Below, one piece after another: positions 273 through 63,701 of a DNA stretch of 64,000 bases. A model generated the notes under the pieces. It saw only the letters and a list, made by a program, of their open reading frames with translations. It was not told the DNA's origin and made no database searches. The translations under genes were made by a program, and so were the position numbers. Source of the stretch: Paraburkholderia sp. Tr-20389 (lineage in GTDB: Bacteria > Pseudomonadota > Gammaproteobacteria > Burkholderiales > Burkholderiaceae); assembly GCF_017104565.1 (NCBI RefSeq), contig NZ_JAAGPD010000018.1:1-64000 (forward strand). The letters run 5' to 3'. The stretch's first letter is position 1. Every line of letters starts with the position of its first letter.

Positions 273-1031
273 GTGCCCGTCAACTACCTGCGCGGCTTCA
301 CCTCGGCCGCTCGCACCGATGCCGCCAACCGGCGGCTGGGCCTGGCGCTCGCGGGTATCGCGGGCGCCGCGAACGCCGGCGGCTTTCTGGCGATCGGCCA
401 GTACACGTCGCACATGTCGGGCATGGTGTCGTCGCTGGCCGACAACCTCGCGCTCGGCAACCTCGCGTTCGTGCTGTCGGCGGCGAGTTCGATCGTCGCG
501 TTTCTCGCGGGCGCCGCCAGCTCGGCCATTCTGATCAACTGGGGCAGGCGCAGAGGCACGCACAGCGTGTACGCGATGCCGCTCGTGCTCGAAGGGCTGT
601 TGCTGCTGTGTTTCGGCGTGCTCGGCGCGAATCTCGAGCAACATCGTCTGCTGTTCGTACCGGCCACGGTCACGTTGCTCTGTTACGTGATGGGCCTGCA
701 GAACGCGATGATCACCAAGATCTCCAAGGCGGAAATCCGCACCACGCACGTCACAGGTCTCGTGACGGACCTCGGCATCGAAATCGGCAAGGGCCTGTAC
801 TGGAACCGGGGCGTCGCGGCGACGGACGCGGGTTATGTCGGCGCCGACATGCGCCGGCTCGGCTTGCTCGCGTCGTTGCTGGGGATGTTTCTCGCTGGCG
901 GACTGGCTGGCGCGATCGCGTTCAAGCAGGTCGGCTTCGTTGCGACCGTGCCGATGGCAGCGCTGCTGCTCGTGCTGGCCGTCGTGCCCGTCGCGGACGA
1001 TCTGTTGAGGTATCCGCGGCGCGGGCGGTGA
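273..1031 (+). CDS. DUF1275 (YoaK-family) integral membrane protein
   Basis: This 252-residue protein is of typical size for the YoaK/DUF1275 family, a group of six-helix inner-membrane proteins of unknown biochemical role. Features visible include an early GIAGAANAGGFLAIGQYTSH segment (the family's GxxNaGGf...TsHmSG signature), long hydrophobic stretches around residues 22-45, 65-85, 95-125, 130-145 and 200-245, and the polar loop THVTGLVTDLG. The start is GTG 273 after a weak GCAGG; no in-frame ATG lies upstream before a stop. It appears monocistronic. Function beyond membrane location is not inferable from sequence. Confidence 0.85.
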   Translation: MPVNYLRGFTSAARTDAANRRLGLALAGIAGAANAGGFLAIGQYTSHMSGMVSSLADNLALGNLAFVLSAASSIVAFLAGAASSAILINWGRRRGTHSVYAMPLVLEGLLLLCFGVLGANLEQHRLLFVPATVTLLCYVMGLQNAMITKISKAEIRTTHVTGLVTDLGIEIGKGLYWNRGVAATDAGYVGADMRRLGLLASLLGMFLAGGLAGAIAFKQVGFVATVPMAALLLVLAVVPVADDLLRYPRRGR

Positions 1032-1377
1032 GTTACGCGCGCCGCCTCCGATCGCCCGCGGCATCGATTTCGTCCTGATCCTCGATTCCCGTTTCTTCTC
1101 CGCTTTTCCGCGCAGGCAGGTGTAGACGCTCGTCGCACCCGGATCGCGTCCCGACGTTTCGCTGTCTCTTTCTACGGGACACGATTTGTCCCAATACCCG
1201 CCTATATTCCCCTCAGCCCGTAGCCACGCGCTAACGCCGATTTGGCTTGTCAGCAAGGCGTTTAAAGAAGACCGGTTGATGTGCCGTAATCGCGCTGGTG
1301 CAGCCAGCGAATGATGGAAGCGAGACGCAGGCAATCGCGACGCAGCATGCAACCTCAGCCTGGAAGAGATCAACACG
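1032..1377. promoter_or_regulatory. intergenic region with inverted repeat 1176-1192
   Basis: About 350 bases without a convincing gene. The only structured element seen is GGGACA-CGATT-TGTCCC (1176-1192), a 6-bp inverted repeat that could be an operator or the base of a small hairpin. A TATATT hexamer follows at about 1202-1207 and could be a -10 element for the small gene at 1378, but no convincing -35 at the right distance was found. Confidence 0.3.
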
Positions 1378-1518
1378 ATGAATAACAATTCTCCACTTGA
1401 AAGTCTCACAGCGTTTGCCATCGTTTTCGCCACCGGCGTCCTGTCGACACTCGCGCTCGGCAAGTACATCGACGAGGTTCGCCGCGACGCATACGACGCT
1501 GCGTCGAACGCGGCCTGA
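1378..1518 (+). CDS. 46-residue single-span membrane miniprotein
   Basis: This short frame starts at ATG 1378 with a good ribosome binding site (GGAAGAG, 1362-1368, spacing 9) and stops at TGA 1516-1518. The protein has a short polar N-terminus, a hydrophobic helix (about residues 9-27, LTAFAIVFATGVLSTLALG) and a charged C-terminal tail (KYIDEVRRDAYDAASNAA). The design suggests a one-pass inner-membrane peptide. Family and role are unknown. It has no same-strand partner: the next gene, recC, begins 214 bp downstream after unremarkable sequence. Confidence 0.6.
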   Translation: MNNNSPLESLTAFAIVFATGVLSTLALGKYIDEVRRDAYDAASNAA

Positions 1519-1732
1519 GCAGCGGCACGCGGCCTTCGTCATCAGCGAGCGCTCGCCCGTCCCGAACGCCACCGGCACGTGCAACCCTGACCCGCGCCTG
1601 CATCGCCCAGTACCACAACCGCGCATCAACAGGTAGCATGCGCAACCTCATTCCACTCAGGACGATTCGCGACTGCGCGCCCACGCGACGCGCATACGCT
1701 CAGTCCGTCCATCCGCGTTTTCGGAGCCTTTC

Positions 1733-4700
1733 TTGACCTCGAACTCCATCTCACCCGGCCTGATGCTGATTCACGGCAACCGGTCCGAGCGGCTTCGCGA
1801 TCTGCTGGTCGAATGGATGAAGCGTTATCCGCTCGCGCCGCTCGAAAACGAGACGATCCTCGTGCAGAGTAACGGCATCGCGCAGTGGCTGAAGCTCGCG
1901 CTGGCCGCCGATCGTGATCCAGAGACGGGCGCGGGCGGCTGCGGCATTGCTGCCGCGCTGGAAATCACGCTGCCGTCGCGCTTCATCTGGCAGGCGTATC
2001 GCGCGGTGCTGGGTGGGTCGTCGGTGGCCGAGGTGTCGCCGTTCGACAAGTCGCGTCTCGTATGGCGCCTGATGCGCGTGTTGCCGGCGTTGATCGGGCT
2101 TCCCGCCTTCGAGCCGCTGCGCCGTTTCATCAGCCGCGACGACGACCTCCGCAAGCGGTTTCAGCTTGCCGAGCGCATCGCCGATCTGTTCGACCAGTAC
2201 CAGATGTATCGCTCCGACTGGCTCGCGAGCTGGGCGCAGGGTGACGACATCGTGCTCGACGCGCGGGGCGAGCCGCAGCCGCTGCCCGACGAACAGCGCT
2301 GGCAGGCCGCGCTGTGGCGCGAACTGATTGCCGATGTGGAGCGCACGACGCGCGGCGGGTCGGCGCAGGAAGCGATGTCGAACAGCGGGCGCGCGGCCGT
2401 CCACGAGGCGTTCCTGAAGCGTATCGACGGATGGGATAGCGAAGCGCGTCCGGCAGGCCTGCCGCGGCGCATCGTCGTGTTCGGCATTTCGAGCCTGCCG
2501 CGCCAGTCGCTCGAAGCGTTGGCCGCGCTCGCGCGCTGGAGCCAGGTGCTGCTGTGCGTGCCGAATCCGTGCGCGCACTACTGGGCCGACATCGTGCCCG
2601 ACAAGGAACTGCTGCGCGCGCAACATTCGCGGCAGCAGCGCCGCGAGGGCGCGCCCGCCGAATTGCATGCCGACGAACTGCATCTGCACGCGCATCCGTT
2701 GCTGGCGTCGTGGGGCAAGCAGGGCCGCGACTTCATCGGCCTGCTCGACGAGTTCGACAGCGCCGAGGCGCGCGAGCAGTATCGTCCGCAGTTTGCGGGT
2801 ATTGGTCAGCGCATCGACCTGTTCGACGAGCGCGACGCGGAGACGCTGCTGCAACAGCTGCAGGACGACATCCGCGATCTGCGTCCGCTGCGCGAAACAC
2901 AAACCGAATGGCCCGAAGTCGATCCGGAGTTCGACGACTCGATCCGCTTTCACGTCGCGCACAGCGCGCAACGCGAGGTCGAAATCCTGCACGACCAGTT
3001 GCTCGACGCGTTCAACGCGGACGCGAGCTTGCGTCCGCGCGACATCATCGTGATGGTGCCGGATATCGAAGCCTACGCTCCGCATATCCAGGCCGTGTTC
3101 GGCATGCTCGACCGCGACGACCCGCGCTACATCCCGTTCAGCGTCGCCGATCGCGGACAGCGCCAGGCTGACCCGCTGGTGGGCGCGTTCGAGACACTGC
3201 TCGGCTTGCAGCATTCACGCATGACGGTCAGCGATCTGCTCGACCTGCTCGACGTTCCCGCGCTGCGCCAGCGCTTCGGCATCGACGAAAGCGATCTGCC
3301 CAAGCTGCGTGCGTGGATGCGCGGTGCGAACGTGCGCTGGGGTCTGCATGCGGAGCATCGCGAGCGGCTCGGCCTGCCGCGCGACGCGAACGCAGCGGCG
3401 CCGCATACGTGGATGTTCGGCCTGCGGCGGATGCTGCTCGGCTACGCAGTCGGCGGCGACGCGCAGGCGTGGTGCGACATCGAACCGTTCGGCGAAGTGG
3501 GCGGGCTGGACGCGGCGCTGCTCGGTCCGCTCGTCAGGCTGATCGACGAACTCGACCATGCGTGGCGCACGATGAGCGAGCCCGCGCTGCCCGCCGAGTG
3601 GTGCGAACGCCTGCGCGCGCTGAAGCAGGCATTCTTCAGCACCGACGACGGCAACGACGGCAACGACGCGTACACGCTCGCGCGCCTCGACAACATCCTG
3701 CAAACGTGGCTCGACGCGTGCACGGAAGCGAATCTCACCGACACGTTGCCACTCTCCGTGGTCGCCGATTACTGGCTGAGCCAGCTCGACGAAACCGGCT
3801 TGTCGCAGCGCTTCTTCGCGGGCGCGGTGACCTTCGCGACGCTGATGCCGATGCGCGCGATTCCGTTCCGCCGCGTGTGCCTGCTCGGCATGAACGACGG
3901 CGACTATCCGCGCACGCGCGTGCCGATGGATTTCGACCTGATGCGCGGCCACTACCGGCCGGGCGACCGTTCGCGTCGCGAGGACGATCGTTATCTGCTG
4001 CTCGAAGCCGTGTTGTCGGCGCGCGATCATCTGCATGTGTCGTGGGTCGGGCGCAGCATCAACGACAACACCGAGCGCCCGCCGTCCGTGCTGATCGGCC
4101 AGCTTCGCGATCACCTCGCGAAAGGCTGGAAGCTCGCCGATGCGGAAGACGACGATAGCGCCGCGCTCGTCGATGCGTTGACGATCGGGCATCGCTTGCA
4201 GCCGTTCAGCATCGAGTACTTCCCCGTCGATGCCGACGCTTCGACGCTCTTCACGTACGCGGCGGAGTGGCGCACGGCGCCGCGCGAAACGGGCAAGCCG
4301 CCGGCGGATGCCCAACTGCCCGCGCTCGTGCGCGATGAGCCTTTGTCGTTGCGCGAACTCGCCGACTTTCTGAAGAACCCCGTCAAGGCCTTTTTCGGCC
4401 AGCGCCTGCGCGTCGCACTCGACGCCGAGGAAGCGGTTAGCGACGACCAGGAGCCGTTCGAACTCGACGGGCTCGCCAGATGGAAGCTGCAAGACGAGCT
4501 GATCCATGCGCAGGCCGCCGATCTCGACGATGCGAACCAGGACGATGCGTTGATCGTGGCCGCGCGTGAAGCGCGCCTTGCGGTGATCCGCCGACGCGGC
4601 GACGTGGTGGCGGGCGGCTTCGGCGATATCGCGAGCGGCGAGCTGGTCGAGCCGATGGACGCGTTTCTCGTGGCGTGCCGCAAGCAGCTGGAACGCTGGC

Positions 4701-57906: not shown

Positions 57907-58148
57907 CCGGCCTGTTTCGTTTGCATTCGCGGACGTCTGCAGCCATAGCACATACGCTCACGCGTTGGCGTGATGGACGGATTTGGGCGCTAGTTTGTCT
58001 TTAGAGACCGATCAAAGTATTCGATACTCAGGAGTCGATTCGTGACGTGCAAGGGCGCGCCACTGCCTTCATATGCGCACGCATATACCAGCAGGGCCGT
58101 CGAATCGAAACAACTCCATATTGCCAGCCCTTTCGAACGGACACGAAG

Positions 58149-59075
58149 ATGGACCGGCTTGACGCGTTGAGGCTGTTTGTCGAAATCGCCGAAGCCGGGA
58201 GCTTTTCCGCGGCTGCGCGGAAGAGCACGGTGTCGACATCGACGGTAACGCTCGCGCTGCAAAAGCTCGAAGAGGAAGTCGGCGCGCGTCTCATCATGCG
58301 CACGACACGACGCCTGGCTTTTACGCACGAAGGTCAGCGCTTTCTCGACGACGCACGCCGTGTGCTTGCCGATTGGGATGCGGCGATTCTCAGTCTGCGC
58401 GAAGACGGTCCATTGAACGGCCCCATCCGGCTGACGGCCAGCACCGATTTCGGCCGCACGCGTGTCGTGCCGCTGCTGGACAAGTTCATGAGCCTGTACC
58501 CGCAAGTGCAGGTGTCGGTGCTGCTGACGGATGGCGTGATCGACCTAGTCGATCAACATCTGGACCTCGCATTGCGCAATGGTCCGCTGATCGATTCGCG
58601 GCTCAAGGCGCGGCTGCTGTTGACGGGGCCGCGCGTGGTGTGCGCCGCGCCGTCTTATTGGGCGACGCATGGCAAGGCGATGCATCCGTCGCAACTGTCG
58701 TCGCATAACTGCCTGATCCTCGCGCGGCCCGATGCGCCGTTCGCGAACTGGCCTTTCGTCGTCGACGGCAAGCAGATCGCCGTCCGGGTATCGGGCAATC
58801 GCGTGGCGAGCGATGGCGGCGTGCTGCGCGAATGGGCCGTGAACGGTTATGGCGTGATACTGAAAAACCGTTGGGACGTCTATCACGAACTGTTGTCGGG
58901 CAGGCTCGAGACGGCGCTGGATCAGTACATCGGCGAGCGCGTCGATCTGTTCGCTGTCTATGCAGGTGCGATGCCGAGCCGGCGGGTGGGTACGCTGATC
59001 GACTTCATTGCGCGTGAGCTGGCCGTCGACGATACGCTCGAACTGCATCCGCTAGACAGTCTTCGTCCGCTTTAG
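58149..59075 (+). CDS. LysR-family transcriptional regulator
   Basis: A 308-residue LysR regulator: a winged HTH in residues 1-62 (MDRLDALRLFVEIAEAGSFS, STSTVTLALQKLEEEVG) and a periplasmic-binding-like effector domain (about 90-295). It belongs to the large group resembling DhcR/AaeR-type regulators with PIRLTAS...GRTRVVPLL at the hinge. ATG 58149 is chosen because the HTH begins there. Its target is not obvious: the upstream permease is on the same strand and no divergent partner exists. Confidence 0.92.
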   Translation: MDRLDALRLFVEIAEAGSFSAAARKSTVSTSTVTLALQKLEEEVGARLIMRTTRRLAFTHEGQRFLDDARRVLADWDAAILSLREDGPLNGPIRLTASTDFGRTRVVPLLDKFMSLYPQVQVSVLLTDGVIDLVDQHLDLALRNGPLIDSRLKARLLLTGPRVVCAAPSYWATHGKAMHPSQLSSHNCLILARPDAPFANWPFVVDGKQIAVRVSGNRVASDGGVLREWAVNGYGVILKNRWDVYHELLSGRLETALDQYIGERVDLFAVYAGAMPSRRVGTLIDFIARELAVDDTLELHPLDSLRPL

Positions 59076-59150: not shown

Positions 59151-59175
59151 AACTGCGATTAACTTTGTCGGAGTG
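59151..59175 (+). promoter_or_regulatory. degenerate Rrf2 operator over the regulator's ribosome site
   Basis: AACTGCGA-N9-TCGGAGTG: the left arm matches the perfect operators at 60491 and 62238 at 7 of 8 positions and the right arm at 6 of 8, with the identical 9-base spacer. It covers the GGAG ribosome site 3-9 bp before ATG 59179, suggesting weak autorepression. Confidence 0.5.
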
Positions 59176-59178
59176 GCT

Positions 59179-59730
59179 ATGTCTCACATCAGCGCAGGTG
59201 TCGAATACGGCTTGCACTGCCTGCTTTATCTCACGGAAACGGCGCCTGGCGGCGTTTCCGAGGCGAGCGTGCGCGATCTGGCCGAGTTGCAGGGCGTGCC
59301 CGCCGACTACGTCGCGAAACTATTTACCAAGCTGCATAAAGCGGGGCTAGTCATTGCGACGGAAGGCGCCAAGGGCGGCTTTGCGCTTGCGCGTCCGGCA
59401 AATCAGATTTCGGTACTCGACGTCGTGACGGCCATTGACGGCGACAAACAGTTGTTCGAATGCAGGGAGGTGCGCACGCGCTGTGCGGTATTCGGTGAAA
59501 CGGCACCGGCATGGGCGTCCAGCGGCGTCTGCTCGATTCACGCCGTGATGCAGAACGCGGAAAAGCGCATGCGTGAAGCACTGGCTTCGCAATCGCTTCA
59601 TGACCTCGCGGTGCGCACGTCCGCGAAGGCGCCGCGCACGTATGGGCCGCAAGTCGTCAAATGGCTGGATGGCCGTGCGACAGGCCGGCGGCGCGATCGC
59701 AGCGGGGCGGCTTCCGGCCAACGCTCCTGA
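59179..59730 (+). CDS. Rrf2-family transcriptional regulator with three cysteines
   Basis: A 183-residue Rrf2-type regulator. The winged helix is at residues 1-75 (SAGVEYGLHCLLYL, YVAKLFTKLHKAGLV, GGFALARP). The cysteine trio Cys95-x6-Cys102 and Cys118 lies in the region where IscR/NsrR bind an Fe-S cluster, but with altered spacing; it could hold a cluster or act as a thiol sensor. ATG 59179 has GGAG 5 bp upstream. The C-terminal approximately 30 residues are Arg/Ser-rich. It neighbours azoR, and both genes plus the cupin share a 25-bp palindrome, so it is the likely repressor of that group. Confidence 0.9.
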   Translation: MSHISAGVEYGLHCLLYLTETAPGGVSEASVRDLAELQGVPADYVAKLFTKLHKAGLVIATEGAKGGFALARPANQISVLDVVTAIDGDKQLFECREVRTRCAVFGETAPAWASSGVCSIHAVMQNAEKRMREALASQSLHDLAVRTSAKAPRTYGPQVVKWLDGRATGRRRDRSGAASGQRS

Positions 59731-59754
59731 GATACAGGCAGTCGATATGACGAA

Positions 59755-59788
59755 GGCCGCAGCCTGAAAAGCTGCGGCCTTTTCTTTT
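59755..59788 (+). terminator. intrinsic terminator of the Rrf2 gene
   Basis: GGCCGCAGC (59755-59763), loop CTGAAAA, GCTGCGGCC (59771-59779), then TTTTCTTTT. A strong Rho-independent terminator between the convergent Rrf2 and azoR genes; on the minus strand the stem may also serve azoR. Confidence 0.9.
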
Positions 59789-59805
59789 CGACTTTGTGCT
59801 GACGA

Positions 59806-60477
59806 TTAAGCCGCTTCGACCAGTGCGTTGCCGACGCGTGCCCGTTCCCACGCGGCCCACTCGGCGGCCACGCCGGCAAGTTCTGCCTTGGCGCGCTTCA
59901 GTGCTTCCGTGCGCGCTTCCTGATCGGAGAACTGCAACGGTTGCGCGTCGACGAAGCACGGCTCGTTGACCCCGATGAAAGAGAATGCGGCCTTGAGCGC
60001 CGGCGTGAGCGCATCCATCGACGAAAACACCGTGCCGGGGCGCAGATCGGCGCCGCGCGTGGTGATGAACAGCGTCTTCTGTCGGTTCAACTGGCCGACG
60101 ATGGTGCCCTCCTCGGAATTCTTGTAGGTCACGCCCGTACGCGTCACGTTGTCGATGAACGCCTTGAACGCCGAAGGCATGGACCAGTTGTACATCGGCA
60201 TCGCGAAGACGAAGGCGTCGGCTTCCAGCAGCCGCTTGCACAGCGCATCGGACGGCGCCAGCGTGCCGCGCATGGCCTCGGTACGTTCGTGCTCCGGGTG
60301 GTAGGTCGCGATGGCGAACGCTTCGGTGACGTGCGCGGGCGTATCGACGGTGACGTCGAGATAGTCGACTTCGACATCCACGCCTTCGGCACGCAGGTTC
60401 TCGATGAACTCGCGCGACAGCGCGCGGGAATTGGATCGCTCGCGCTTGGCGCTCGAATCGACGTGGAAAATCTTCAT
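59806..60477 (-). CDS. azoR: FMN-dependent NADH:quinone oxidoreductase / azoreductase
   Basis: A 223-residue flavodoxin-fold reductase of the AzoR family, which reduces quinones by two electrons and azo bonds incidentally, protecting against electrophilic quinone stress. The FMN phosphate loop is DSSAKRERSNSRALS near the N-terminus, with MPMYNWSMPSAFKAFID and TTRGADLRPG later. The start at 60477 has GGAGA 5-6 bp upstream; four extra residues to 60489 are possible. A perfect operator AACTACGA-N9-TCGTAGTT sits 14 bp before the start, over the expected promoter. Confidence 0.92.
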   Translation of the reverse strand: MKIFHVDSSAKRERSNSRALSREFIENLRAEGVDVEVDYLDVTVDTPAHVTEAFAIATYHPEHERTEAMRGTLAPSDALCKRLLEADAFVFAMPMYNWSMPSAFKAFIDNVTRTGVTYKNSEEGTIVGQLNRQKTLFITTRGADLRPGTVFSSMDALTPALKAAFSFIGVNEPCFVDAQPLQFSDQEARTEALKRAKAELAGVAAEWAAWERARVGNALVEAA

Positions 60478-60490
60478 TTCTTTCTCCATT

Positions 60491-60515
60491 AACTACGACT
60501 ATACGTATCGTAGTT
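60491..60515. promoter_or_regulatory. Rrf2-type operator in front of azoR
   Basis: AACTACGA (60491-60498), spacer CTATACGTA, TCGTAGTT (60508-60515): a perfect 8-bp inverted repeat. The same arms and spacing recur at 62238-62262. The 25-bp size is typical of Rrf2-family sites. Confidence 0.75.
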
Positions 60516-61000
60516 GAGAGGATAGGGAAATTGGCAGAACTCTGCAACTGCCGGGACGCAAGCGATTGACCGTGCGCATGTACTTCGAACACGTGTGAGA
60601 AAGCGCCGCGGCCTTGCGCAATAAGGCTCTCGCGGAAGCTTTAGCATGTAGTGCGACGGATAGGGGAGGAAAACGAGATTCAGTGTTTCGCGTATGCATG
60701 CGGTTGCGACACCACTATGTGGGCCGGTCGCGACCAAGGTGCCACCGTGCTGTCGTCGCTTCGATGTCTAGTCAGACTGGCGGCTATGGACTAGCCAAAA
60801 GTCACGCGTGTGACAAAGACACACAAACCCTGCGGGTCATGCGTGAAGATTCGATGCTGCACCTGCAACGAATGTTGCGCGGCTCGTGCGTCATTTAGCG
60901 ACGTGCAGCACCGATGACAGGAAGCGCCAAAGGCTTTGCCGCCCGTGGCGCTTAAGATTTGTTCAGGCTCTACAGTATGCGAATGACCGTGCGTTCGAAT
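60516..61000. other. intergenic region, no feature seen
   Basis: About 485 bases between the azoR operator and the DUF3331 gene. Short frames are present but none has a ribosome site or protein-like composition. No hairpin with a T-run or repeated motif was found. Confidence 0.5.
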
Positions 61001-61438
61001 TCAATCGAGCACGATACCGCTAGGACAAGACGGTACCGCGGATGCCAGAATCATCCGGTCTCGATTGGCGGGGAAGTAGCTCTCGCATGCTCGCGGGCGA
61101 AACACCGGGTCGCCGCGTCGTATCGGCATGCCTGTCAATACACAGAACGAATCCATGCGTGCGAGACCGATGCGCCACACCTGATCCGCGTAATGACCTG
61201 AGCGCGGATCGCTCCAGCATACGCTCAACGTCTTCGACGACAGTTGTTCGAGGATGGAGATATGCGCCGGCGGCGGCTCGGCGGGAGCAGGTTCGAGTGC
61301 TTCCGGCGGCGGCCGCTTGGTCATGCGGAATTTTTTCTTTGGACCGTATTGTGCTTTCTTGATCGATTCAAGGGGTGTGGGCATCAGGACGCCCACCAAT
61401 GCGCGTCGAACGATATCTTCTTCAACCGGACGAGTCAT
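61001..61438 (-). CDS. DUF3331-like hypothetical protein
   Basis: A 145-residue protein. The C-terminal half (WSDPRSGHYADQVWRIGL, CVLTGMPIRRGDPVFRPR) matches my memory of DUF3331, a family largely confined to Burkholderia relatives, with a probable zinc- or ligand-binding CxLTG turn. The N-terminal part is basic and then Pro/Ala/Glu-rich. Of two adjacent start codons (61441 and 61438) the second is 6 bp from GGAGG and is preferred. It stands alone. Function is unknown. Confidence 0.75.
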   Translation of the reverse strand: MTRPVEEDIVRRALVGVLMPTPLESIKKAQYGPKKKFRMTKRPPPEALEPAPAEPPPAHISILEQLSSKTLSVCWSDPRSGHYADQVWRIGLARMDSFCVLTGMPIRRGDPVFRPRACESYFPANRDRMILASAVPSCPSGIVLD

Positions 61439-61773
61439 CATTCACCTCCGTCACAGAGTTTGGCTGGCGGCACGCTCTGACGCGGCCGAGGTGCTGCTGC
61501 TGACGTGTTGTACGGTGTGGCTCGCAAGGCAGTTCCAGCGACATGCCTGCATGGCGCGCAGTTATGCGCGAAATCGATTCCCGCCATCAACGCGCCGTGA
61601 CTCTATATTGGACGTTCAGGCGGCCATACAGCAAGTTAAGCGTTGTTAACCGGAATGCGCAACGTAATCTTGTCGCGCTTCAGGTCGCTGAACTTCTTAA
61701 GCCCGGCCAAAGCGCGTGCGCTATCTACGCGCATGGCCTGAGGGCTTGATATCGGCATAAATATGCATCGCTA
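61439..61773. other. intergenic region, no feature seen
   Basis: About 335 bases between the cupin stop and the DUF3331 start, both on the minus strand. No convincing gene, terminator or repeat was recognised; it should contain the DUF3331 promoter. Confidence 0.45.
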
Positions 61774-62205
61774 TTACTTCTTGTCCCAGGTAACGAGGTC
61801 CTTATCGTTGTCGTCGGCGACAAAGATCGCGAGCAGCTTGGCGGGTTTGGTCTTGCTCGCGTTCTCGCTGACCATGTGATGCGCGCCGAGGGCTTCCGTC
61901 CAGCTTTCACCTGCGTGATAGACGTGCTCTTCGCCATCGTCGACCTTGCTTCGGATCTCGCCTTGCAGAACGTAGCCGACCACGAATGCCTGCCCATGAC
62001 GATGAGATGGCGACACGCCACCCGGTTTGTAATCGACGACGATGGCCGTCATGGTCTTGCCCGGCACGTTTGCGATTGCCGTCTGGAACGCCGGGCTGAT
62101 GTGCTCGCGCGGGCCATCGACGCCATGCGCGTGCGCCGCGTGTGCTGCGCTCAGCGCGATGCAGGCGGTGGCTGTATATGCAAGAACGGTATGAACAAAT
62201 TTCAC
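61774..62205 (-). CDS. exported cupin-domain protein
   Basis: A 143-residue secreted protein. Residues 1-26 form a Sec signal peptide ending AHA. The mature part is a single cupin: motif 1 contains His68-x-His70 (SPSHRHGQAFVVGYVLQGEI) and motif 2 contains GAHHMVSEN. The metal site suggests a dioxygenase-like or binding function in the periplasm; I recall such small cupins travelling with quinone-stress genes. The start is GTG 62205 with GGAGAG about 5 bp upstream. A perfect copy of the azoR operator lies 33 bp before it. Confidence 0.88.
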   Translation of the reverse strand: MKFVHTVLAYTATACIALSAAHAAHAHGVDGPREHISPAFQTAIANVPGKTMTAIVVDYKPGGVSPSHRHGQAFVVGYVLQGEIRSKVDDGEEHVYHAGESWTEALGAHHMVSENASKTKPAKLLAIFVADDNDKDLVTWDKK

Positions 62206-62237
62206 TTGACTCTCCGATAAAAGATATCGACTGCAGT

Positions 62238-62262
62238 AACTACGACTTGTGTTGTCGTAGTT
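62238..62262. promoter_or_regulatory. Rrf2-type operator between cupin and MFS genes
   Basis: AACTACGA (62238-62245), spacer CTTGTGTTG, TCGTAGTT (62255-62262). Arms are identical to the azoR site and the spacer has the same length but unrelated sequence, showing that the arms are conserved. It lies in the divergent region and could control both the cupin and the MFS gene. Confidence 0.75.
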
Positions 62263-62480: not shown

Positions 62481-63701
62481 ATGTCTACGGATGCATCACG
62501 TTCAACGACCGCCCTCGGCGGTCGAGCTGCCATCTGGCGGCACATCTTTGCGGGCTTCAGCGCAAGCCTTGTCGGAATCGGGCTGGCGCGTTTCGCCTAT
62601 ACACCGCTCATTCCGCCGCTGATTCAGGCGCATTGGTTCGCCGCATCGGATGTCGTGTATCTGGGTGCAGCCAATCTTGCGGGCTATCTGCTCGGCGCGC
62701 TGCTGGGACGTCCTGTTGCGCATCGGTTGACGAACACCTACACACTGCGCGCAATGATGGTGTTGGTCTCGGCGGCGTTTCTCGCCTGCGCGTTCCCGGT
62801 ATCCGTCGCGTGGTTTTTCTTCTGGCGATTGTTGTCGGGTGTCGCGGGCGGAGCGATCATGGTGCTGGTCGCCGCCACGGTTCTGCCGCATGTGCCCGCC
62901 GATCGCAAAGGGCTCGCGAGCGGTTCGATTTTTCTCGGACTTGGCGTCGGCATTGCAGCATCCGGAACCATCGTGCCGCTGCTGCTCAACTTCGGCTTGC
63001 GCAATACGTGGATCGGTATTGCCGTCCTGTCGGCGGCGTTGACGGTCGCGACCTGGTACGGCTGGCCATCCGCAACAAAACATGTACACGCCGGACATGG
63101 GCTGTCGACGGAGAAAACACATGACCCCTCGATCGTTCGCGTGCTGTACGCCGAATACGCATTGATGGCGTTGGGCCTTGTTCCCACTATGGTCTTTCTG
63201 GTCGACTTCATCGCGCGCGGGCTCGGAGCGGGCGCACACGTAGGCGCGTCATACTGGATTCTGTATGGCATAGGCGCAATTTTCGGCGCCCCTGTATATG
63301 GTTTCGTGGCCGATCGTTTCGGCGGAAGCTTCGCGATCCGCGTGCTGTCGCTGCTGCAGGTGTTCGTCGTCGCGGTGTTGGCGGTGTCCGGCAACCAGAT
63401 CGTAATTGGCGTGTTGACGCTCGTCATCGGCAGCTTCCCGCCGGGCGTCGTGCCAATGATGCTTACGCGTGTGCATGAAGTCGTACCGCATGATCATGCC
63501 AGGCAGCAGAGGGTCTGGAGCCGCGTGACGACCACCTTTGCGGCGTTTCAGGCCGTCGCAGGCTATGCATATTCGGCGCTGTTCAATGCGAGCGGCGGCA
63601 ATCACCGGCTGCTGTTTGCGATTGGCGCGGCAGCACTCGTGTTGCTCGTGATCACAGACTTTGCATCGCCGTGGCTCGCACGAGATCGCAACGATGCATA
63701 G
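62481..63701 (+). CDS. YbfB/YjiJ-family MFS transporter
   Basis: A 406-residue, 12-helix major facilitator. The opening GFSASLVGIGLARFAYTPLIPPLI is characteristic of the YbfB/YjiJ group, and GSIFLGLGVGIAASGTIVP lies in the middle of the N-terminal half. Substrates of this group are poorly known; members are often efflux-like. It is divergent from the cupin gene with the shared operator between them, about 219 bp upstream, so it may belong to the same stress regulon and export a quinone or related compound. Confidence 0.88.
   Translation: MSTDASRSTTALGGRAAIWRHIFAGFSASLVGIGLARFAYTPLIPPLIQAHWFAASDVVYLGAANLAGYLLGALLGRPVAHRLTNTYTLRAMMVLVSAAFLACAFPVSVAWFFFWRLLSGVAGGAIMVLVAATVLPHVPADRKGLASGSIFLGLGVGIAASGTIVPLLLNFGLRNTWIGIAVLSAALTVATWYGWPSATKHVHAGHGLSTEKTHDPSIVRVLYAEYALMALGLVPTMVFLVDFIARGLGAGAHVGASYWILYGIGAIFGAPVYGFVADRFGGSFAIRVLSLLQVFVVAVLAVSGNQIVIGVLTLVIGSFPPGVVPMMLTRVHEVVPHDHARQQRVWSRVTTTFAAFQAVAGYAYSALFNASGGNHRLLFAIGAAALVLLVITDFASPWLARDRNDA

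Follow-up and report, generated by a model that had tools for sequence, protein, structure and literature searches.

The question raised by this locus of Paraburkholderia sp. Tr-20389 is which protein reads a 25-bp palindrome that recurs around an rrf2 gene, an azoR gene and a small cupin gene, and to which signal that protein responds. The window, that is, the whole stretch of DNA analyzed, covers 64,000 nucleotides (contig NZ_JAAGPD010000018.1, positions 1 to 64,000). Very probably the neighboring Rrf2-family protein binds at this palindrome, a link that comes from the comparison of genomes. From sequence comparison and a predicted fold, the system is judged to be a variant, in proteobacteria, of the RsrR system; no description of its regulon was found in the open-licence PMC literature, as judged by titles and the beginnings of abstracts of the papers listed, and the same literature yielded nothing on Rrf2 together with Paraburkholderia. 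The elements on which the argument turns are the following:

59151 to 59175, no strand: degenerate operator with three mismatches, its right half overlapping the Shine-Dalgarno sequence of rrf2
59179 to 59730, plus strand: rrf2, RsrR-like Rrf2 regulator of 183 amino acids, with Pfam and TIGR00738 scores above cut-off
59806 to 60477, minus strand: azoR, homologue of azo/quinone reductases dependent on flavin mononucleotide (Pfam Flavodoxin_2, E 5.7e-37), putative target
60491 to 60515, no strand: exact operator, ending 13 bp short of the azoR start codon, with zero to two mismatches in 13/13 closest-group genomes
61774 to 62205, minus strand: small cupin gene with a signal-like N-terminus (Pfam Cupin_2, E 6.6e-15) and GGAGAG before its GTG start, putative target
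62238 to 62262, no strand: exact operator between the divergent cupin and transporter genes, 32 bp from the cupin start, with zero or one mismatch in 13/13 closest-group genomes
62481 to 63701, plus strand: YbfB-type transporter of the major facilitator superfamily (MFS; Pfam MFS_4, E 9.9e-72), operator 218 bp upstream, possible target

A pattern scan of the window recovered the palindrome just where the sequence-only reading had placed it, with exact copies of AACTACGA-N9-TCGTAGTT at 60491-60515 and 62238-62262 and a degenerate third copy over the ribosome site of rrf2, ending 3 bp 5' of its ATG (59179). When up to three mismatches are allowed, the window holds these three matches, compared with a mean of 0.12 and a largest value of 1 in 100 shuffled versions, and the whole genome (8,997,065 bases) adds three scattered matches, each with three mismatches. 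A refined core derived from relatives, ACTNCGAY-N7-RTCGNAGT, has three zero-mismatch sites in this genome, all of them at the rrf2 locus, and two one-mismatch sites elsewhere. At up to two mismatches, the core gives 87 sites versus 75 for the reversed pattern, which is near background; the weak core sites of this genome are therefore not interpretable, and no further targets are claimed from them. Among the 13 closest-group genomes, window included, the half-sites are conserved at 0.96-0.98 and the spacers at 0.69-0.80.

The tie between palindrome and regulator was followed in two sets of genomes, consisting of 145 genomes of the same genus and 249 of the family, with 30 common to both. In the genus set, where the rrf2 orthologues have best E values of at most 1.1e-66, sites with at most one mismatch are present in 32 of the 45 genomes with rrf2 and in none of the 100 without it, and the reversed control pattern shows no association (3/45 versus 9/100). 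In the family set, such sites are found in 28 of 249 genomes, namely in 26 of the 45 that carry rrf2, two of these rrf2 genes being fragments, and in 2 of the 204 that do not. The two latter matches are one identical sequence, which in G223 falls within an opposite-strand open frame of 191 amino acids and seems fortuitous. The sequence-only reading had proposed the palindrome as the operator of the Rrf2 protein and had taken operators in genomes lacking rrf2 as evidence to the contrary; the proposal finds support in the co-occurrence at both levels. In ten further rrf2 genomes, the core with at most one mismatch matched in seven, and the reversed control gave similar numbers in several of them.

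Autoregulation, also expected from the sequence alone, is backed by the site that precedes rrf2. A site with at most four mismatches lies within the 60 bp before the gene in 45 of the 46 genus-level genes with upstream DNA, compared with 61 of 9200 random 60-mers from the same loci, true sites included. A wider set of 80 loci, which shares genomes with the genus-level set, comes mostly from Paraburkholderia, Caballeronia, Cupriavidus and Burkholderia, plus Massilia, Thauera and a few alphaproteobacteria; here 74 of the 79 loci with upstream DNA carry such a site, with 2-8 bp usually left between it and the start codon. At 59151 the right half, TCGGAGTG, contains GGAG, and sites upstream of rrf2 tend to this right half: of 65 distinct sites in that place, 61% have G at position 21, compared with 8% of symmetrized target sites. 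The degenerate right half probably doubles as the Shine-Dalgarno sequence, which would explain the asymmetry of the autoregulatory site.

Two loci with unusual rrf2 content deserve mention. In L091 (G081:C14, around 550,259-550,621), rrf2 is broken across frames and a three-mismatch site persists before it, in a genome that has no site with at most one mismatch. In L097 (G103:C12:33500-53400), a stretch of about 10 kb holds three rrf2-type copies, two of them about 66% and one about 50% identical, as well as a remote Rrf2 gene that adjoins a globin/flavohaemoglobin-like gene; no operator precedes the 50% copy.

Regarding the regulator itself, its product scores above the curated cut-offs for the Rrf2 domain (Pfam 113.7 bits, cut-off 30; TIGR00738 99.8 bits, cut-off 73.3). 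Its best match, both by sequence and by predicted fold (monomer model), is to the structures of RsrR, in a fold comparison (VIA-align) that does not thereby exclude families unlisted there. The [2Fe-2S] cluster of RsrR is held by Glu8, His12, Cys90 and Cys110 (PMC9218516). These residues align with Glu9, His13, Cys95 and Cys118 of the rrf2 product, encoded in two short segments:

59203 to 59217, plus strand: codons Glu9 to His13, with two predicted [2Fe-2S] ligands and Tyr10 at the place of RsrR Trp9, from the alignment
59461 to 59532, plus strand: codons Cys95 to Cys118, with the two other predicted ligands and the invariant Cys102 between them, from the alignment

The conservation of the ligand residues can be read directly from the comparison, since none of the 127 alignment rows departs from Glu9, Tyr10, His13, Cys14, Cys95, Cys102 or Cys118. 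These rows comprise 47 plus 80 sequences, with some genomes in both, and exclude the broken rrf2 of G081 (L091), a remnant in G127 (L092) and the other, 25%-identical Rrf2 of G103. The numbering of the three cysteines given in the sequence-only reading is correct for the ATG at 59179.

It is probable, judging from sequence comparison and from the analogy with RsrR, that rrf2 encodes a dimeric, RsrR-like repressor with a predicted [2Fe-2S] cluster, under redox control and regulating rrf2, azoR and the cupin gene. The repressor would recognize AACTACGAY-N7-RTCGTAGTT, in a 25-bp frame of 11-3-11, around the start of its own gene and in front of both azoR and the cupin gene, from which the MFS gene diverges. 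The cluster would probably be held by Glu9 and His13 of one subunit and Cys95 and Cys118 of the other. In RsrR, the oxidized cluster confers tight DNA binding and the reduced one weak binding, with Trp9 rotating as the switch (PMC5015018, PMC11138216). By the same scheme, the oxidized holo-dimer would sit on the DNA and be released upon reduction or loss of the cluster, so that an over-reduced cell would make quinone reductases that consume NAD(P)H, namely AzoR here and an NDH-2-like enzyme in relatives.

Several points weigh against this reading. That there is a cluster, that it works as a redox switch and in which direction the genes respond are predictions carried over from RsrR. The Trp9 switch residue of RsrR is replaced by an invariant Tyr10 and His33 by Gln38, and the switch must therefore differ in detail from that of RsrR. 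Regarding the operator, the Fisher test on the genus co-occurrence (5e-22) ignores shared ancestry, 13 of the 45 rrf2 genomes of the genus have only sites with two to four mismatches, and one of the 26 family matches (G237) lies within an open frame and may be due to chance. A site with at most four mismatches is lacking before rrf2 in four Caballeronia loci (L128, L130, L137, L140), and two of the four genomes concerned (G211, G229), when scanned whole, lack any core site with one mismatch or none. One locus from a metagenome-assembled genome (L177) has only a five-mismatch site before rrf2. No site was found before rrf2 in L236, L237 and L238 (in G278, G305 and G259; from other genera or distant rrf2 copies), nor anywhere in the locus in the case of L237, nor before the paralogue L097:6064 of G103.

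Of the alternatives, the one that survives best keeps the same protein on the same operator and changes only the sensing, which the sequence-only reading had placed at Cys95, Cys102 and Cys118. Quinones or electrophiles would be detected through the thiols of these residues, as in SifR and without an Fe-S cluster, and their modification would release the protein from azoR and the cupin gene. In its favor, Cys14 is invariant together with these three cysteines, Cys102 has no RsrR counterpart in the alignment, quinones are reduced by AzoR-type enzymes, and with SifR an Rrf2 protein that senses quinones is already known (PMC9218516). However, the invariance extends to Glu9 and His13, for which a thiol sensor would have no use, RsrR is clearly the nearest solved relative, and what is mainly controlled in relatives is not a detoxifying enzyme but an NDH-2-like NADH dehydrogenase. 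We consider this explanation unlikely, and since the four ligands of the nearest relative align with invariant residues, the thiol model is, on sequence and fold comparison, probably wrong.

The invariance of Cys102 nevertheless leaves room for a thiol input, in which this residue may take part. A tentative extension of the RsrR-like repressor model, to which we would give only slightly more credit than to pure thiol sensing, is a clade with a changed switch (Tyr10 and Gln38, both invariant) and the invariant Cys102, which takes two inputs, the redox state of the cluster and the electrophilic attack on Cys102. Such a protein would be a compact switch adjusting the supply of NADH:quinone oxidoreductases (NDH-2-like, AzoR) to the cellular redox state; from one lineage to another the target enzyme would change, and the operator and its regulator would not.

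A different reader of the palindrome has also to be considered, since another regulator gene adjoins rrf2, both in the window and throughout its closest relatives:

58128 to 59075: LysR-type regulator, directly upstream of rrf2

This candidate was rejected as reader of the operator, as its family is present in only 13 of 48 loci (orthologues elsewhere in the genomes were not searched; the locus counts exclude LysR, MFS and AzoR matches below 38% identity in the genus loci, and LysR matches below 40% and matches of at most 80 amino acids in the 80-locus set). Operators linked to rrf2 also occur in loci without LysR, and neither the fixed site before rrf2 nor the unlinked NDH-2-like sites described below follow the LysR gene, which makes this explanation very improbable. 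That the palindromes are chance matches, or a dispersed repeat that is passive and regulates nothing, can be dismissed almost entirely. Short palindromes do recur, and the two-mismatch core matches in this genome are near background, but the half-sites are conserved while the spacers diverge, the distance to rrf2 is kept across genera, the zero-mismatch core sites lie only at the rrf2 locus, and both the genome-wide co-occurrence with rrf2 and the unlinked sites speak strongly against it.

Returning to the RsrR-like repressor, its targets can be followed from the window outwards. The azoR gene probably starts at 60477, the second ATG, which follows GGAGAAAG, and the operator therefore ends 13 bp upstream of azoR. 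The other operator lies 32 bp from the cupin start. Both genes are supported as the targets proposed earlier. The MFS gene had been counted among them too, and remains the least certain, because the 62238 site is 218 bp from its start but 32 bp from that of the cupin gene. A signal-like N-terminus, judged by eye, makes the cupin a putatively exported protein.

All three sites are kept in the closest relatives (13 genomes, window included), together with rrf2, azoR, the cupin and the MFS gene. In more distant relatives the gene arrangement changes: in one group (L085, L093-L096), rrf2 and azoR are codirectional behind a single site, and in another group a Pyr_redox_2 flavoprotein takes the place of the target. 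Non-electrogenic NADH:quinone reductases are among the best solved relatives of this protein, which scores below the NCBIfam cut-offs shown, so that "NDH-2-like" denotes a resemblance. In loci taken from some of the genomes having sites with at most one mismatch, the operator is also found far from rrf2. It precedes the NDH-2-like gene, with rrf2 hundreds of kb away or on another contig, in eight genomes of Caballeronia, Cupriavidus and relatives (G173, G202, G277, G350, G283, G227, G146, G257), and in G029 some 1.8 Mb separate the azoR/MFS site from rrf2. Other places bearing operators are cupin genes (one with a CMD gene), an HlyD-like gene (L230) and a pyruvate dehydrogenase E1-like gene (L231). 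In the two loci of NDH-2-like relatives in the Paraburkholderia sp. Tr-20389 genome, no site is better than five mismatches.

The azoR sites follow the regulator as well. An azoR relative is present in 62 genomes of the genus, and 30 of them were examined at this locus. Where rrf2 is present, 21 of 21 azoR loci show a site of no more than two mismatches; in rrf2-less genomes, 9 of 9 lack a site of fewer than four.

The likeness to RsrR extends to the DNA. Its published probes have the same 25-bp frame of 11-3-11, AACT-NN-GAY-N7-RTC-NN-AG, and depart from the consensus of the present operators at 5 and 6 of their 16 half-site positions, mainly at positions 5-6, which are usually AC in the present operators instead of CG. 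Redox enzymes are also among the targets of RsrR, including NADH and quinone oxidoreductases (PMC5015018). The statement in the sequence-only reading that no Rrf2 system with this operator and gene set is known as described is not quite right for the operator and stands for the gene set in the searchable papers. The protein is not classed as RsrR because Trp9 and an nmrA target were looked for and neither was found: RsrR has a divergent nmrA-like target gene, whereas rrf2 of the window is flanked by LysR and azoR without an nmrA partner, and among the loci compared only L083 (G029) has an epimerase/NmrA-like gene near rrf2. Cys102 is a further difference, and so is the number of binding sites, with hundreds of chromatin immunoprecipitation sites for RsrR and few strong operators here.

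It is this last difference that gives the clade its interest. RsrR binds very many sites, but has one clearly affected direct target in the deletion mutant (PMC5015018). The compact, conserved regulon of rrf2, with few strong operators, would make the physiological signal of an RsrR-type sensor, as well as a switch working without Trp9, directly testable, and predicts redox control of the NDH-2-like dehydrogenase and azoR in Burkholderiales.

Among other Rrf2 systems, SifR from Streptococcus pneumoniae is a repressor tied to flavin- and quinone-handling enzymes, has a single reactive cysteine and belongs to a different similarity cluster than RsrR (PMC9218516). Its operator, TGTAA-N9-TTACA, differs from the half-site found here, AACTACGA. 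IscR, NsrR, RirA, CymR and RisR share the Rrf2 winged-helix fold and palindromic operators with the protein studied here, but have other targets, RisR binding a GAC-N7-GTC core (PMC9973013), and those with structures are less similar to the rrf2 product in sequence and fold. The product also falls below the NCBIfam equivalog cut-offs for IscR (56 of 207.55 bits), NsrR (46 of 182), RirA (44.7 of 193) and CymR (43.7 of 195).

Two minor elements complete the locus:

59752 to 59782, plus strand: terminator-like hairpin with a 12-pair stem, between the convergent rrf2 and azoR
61001 to 61441, minus strand: gene for a DUF3331 protein, between azoR and the cupin gene

The scan for terminator-like sites found 7 versus 3.9 expected, and a sigma-70 scan of the region found 2 versus 1.0 expected. 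The DUF3331 gene, which keeps its place between azoR and the cupin gene in the closest group, has no operator of its own. The azoR-cupin neighborhood is kept, without the operator, in 8 of the 9 rrf2-less loci examined (among L284-L298), and the pair is therefore older than, or independent of, Rrf2 control. Lastly, in L231 (G257:C93:8000-14611, positions 701-3600) the pyruvate dehydrogenase E1-like gene (898 amino acids) lies beside two operators with rrf2 on another contig, which suggests growth of the regulon into central metabolism.

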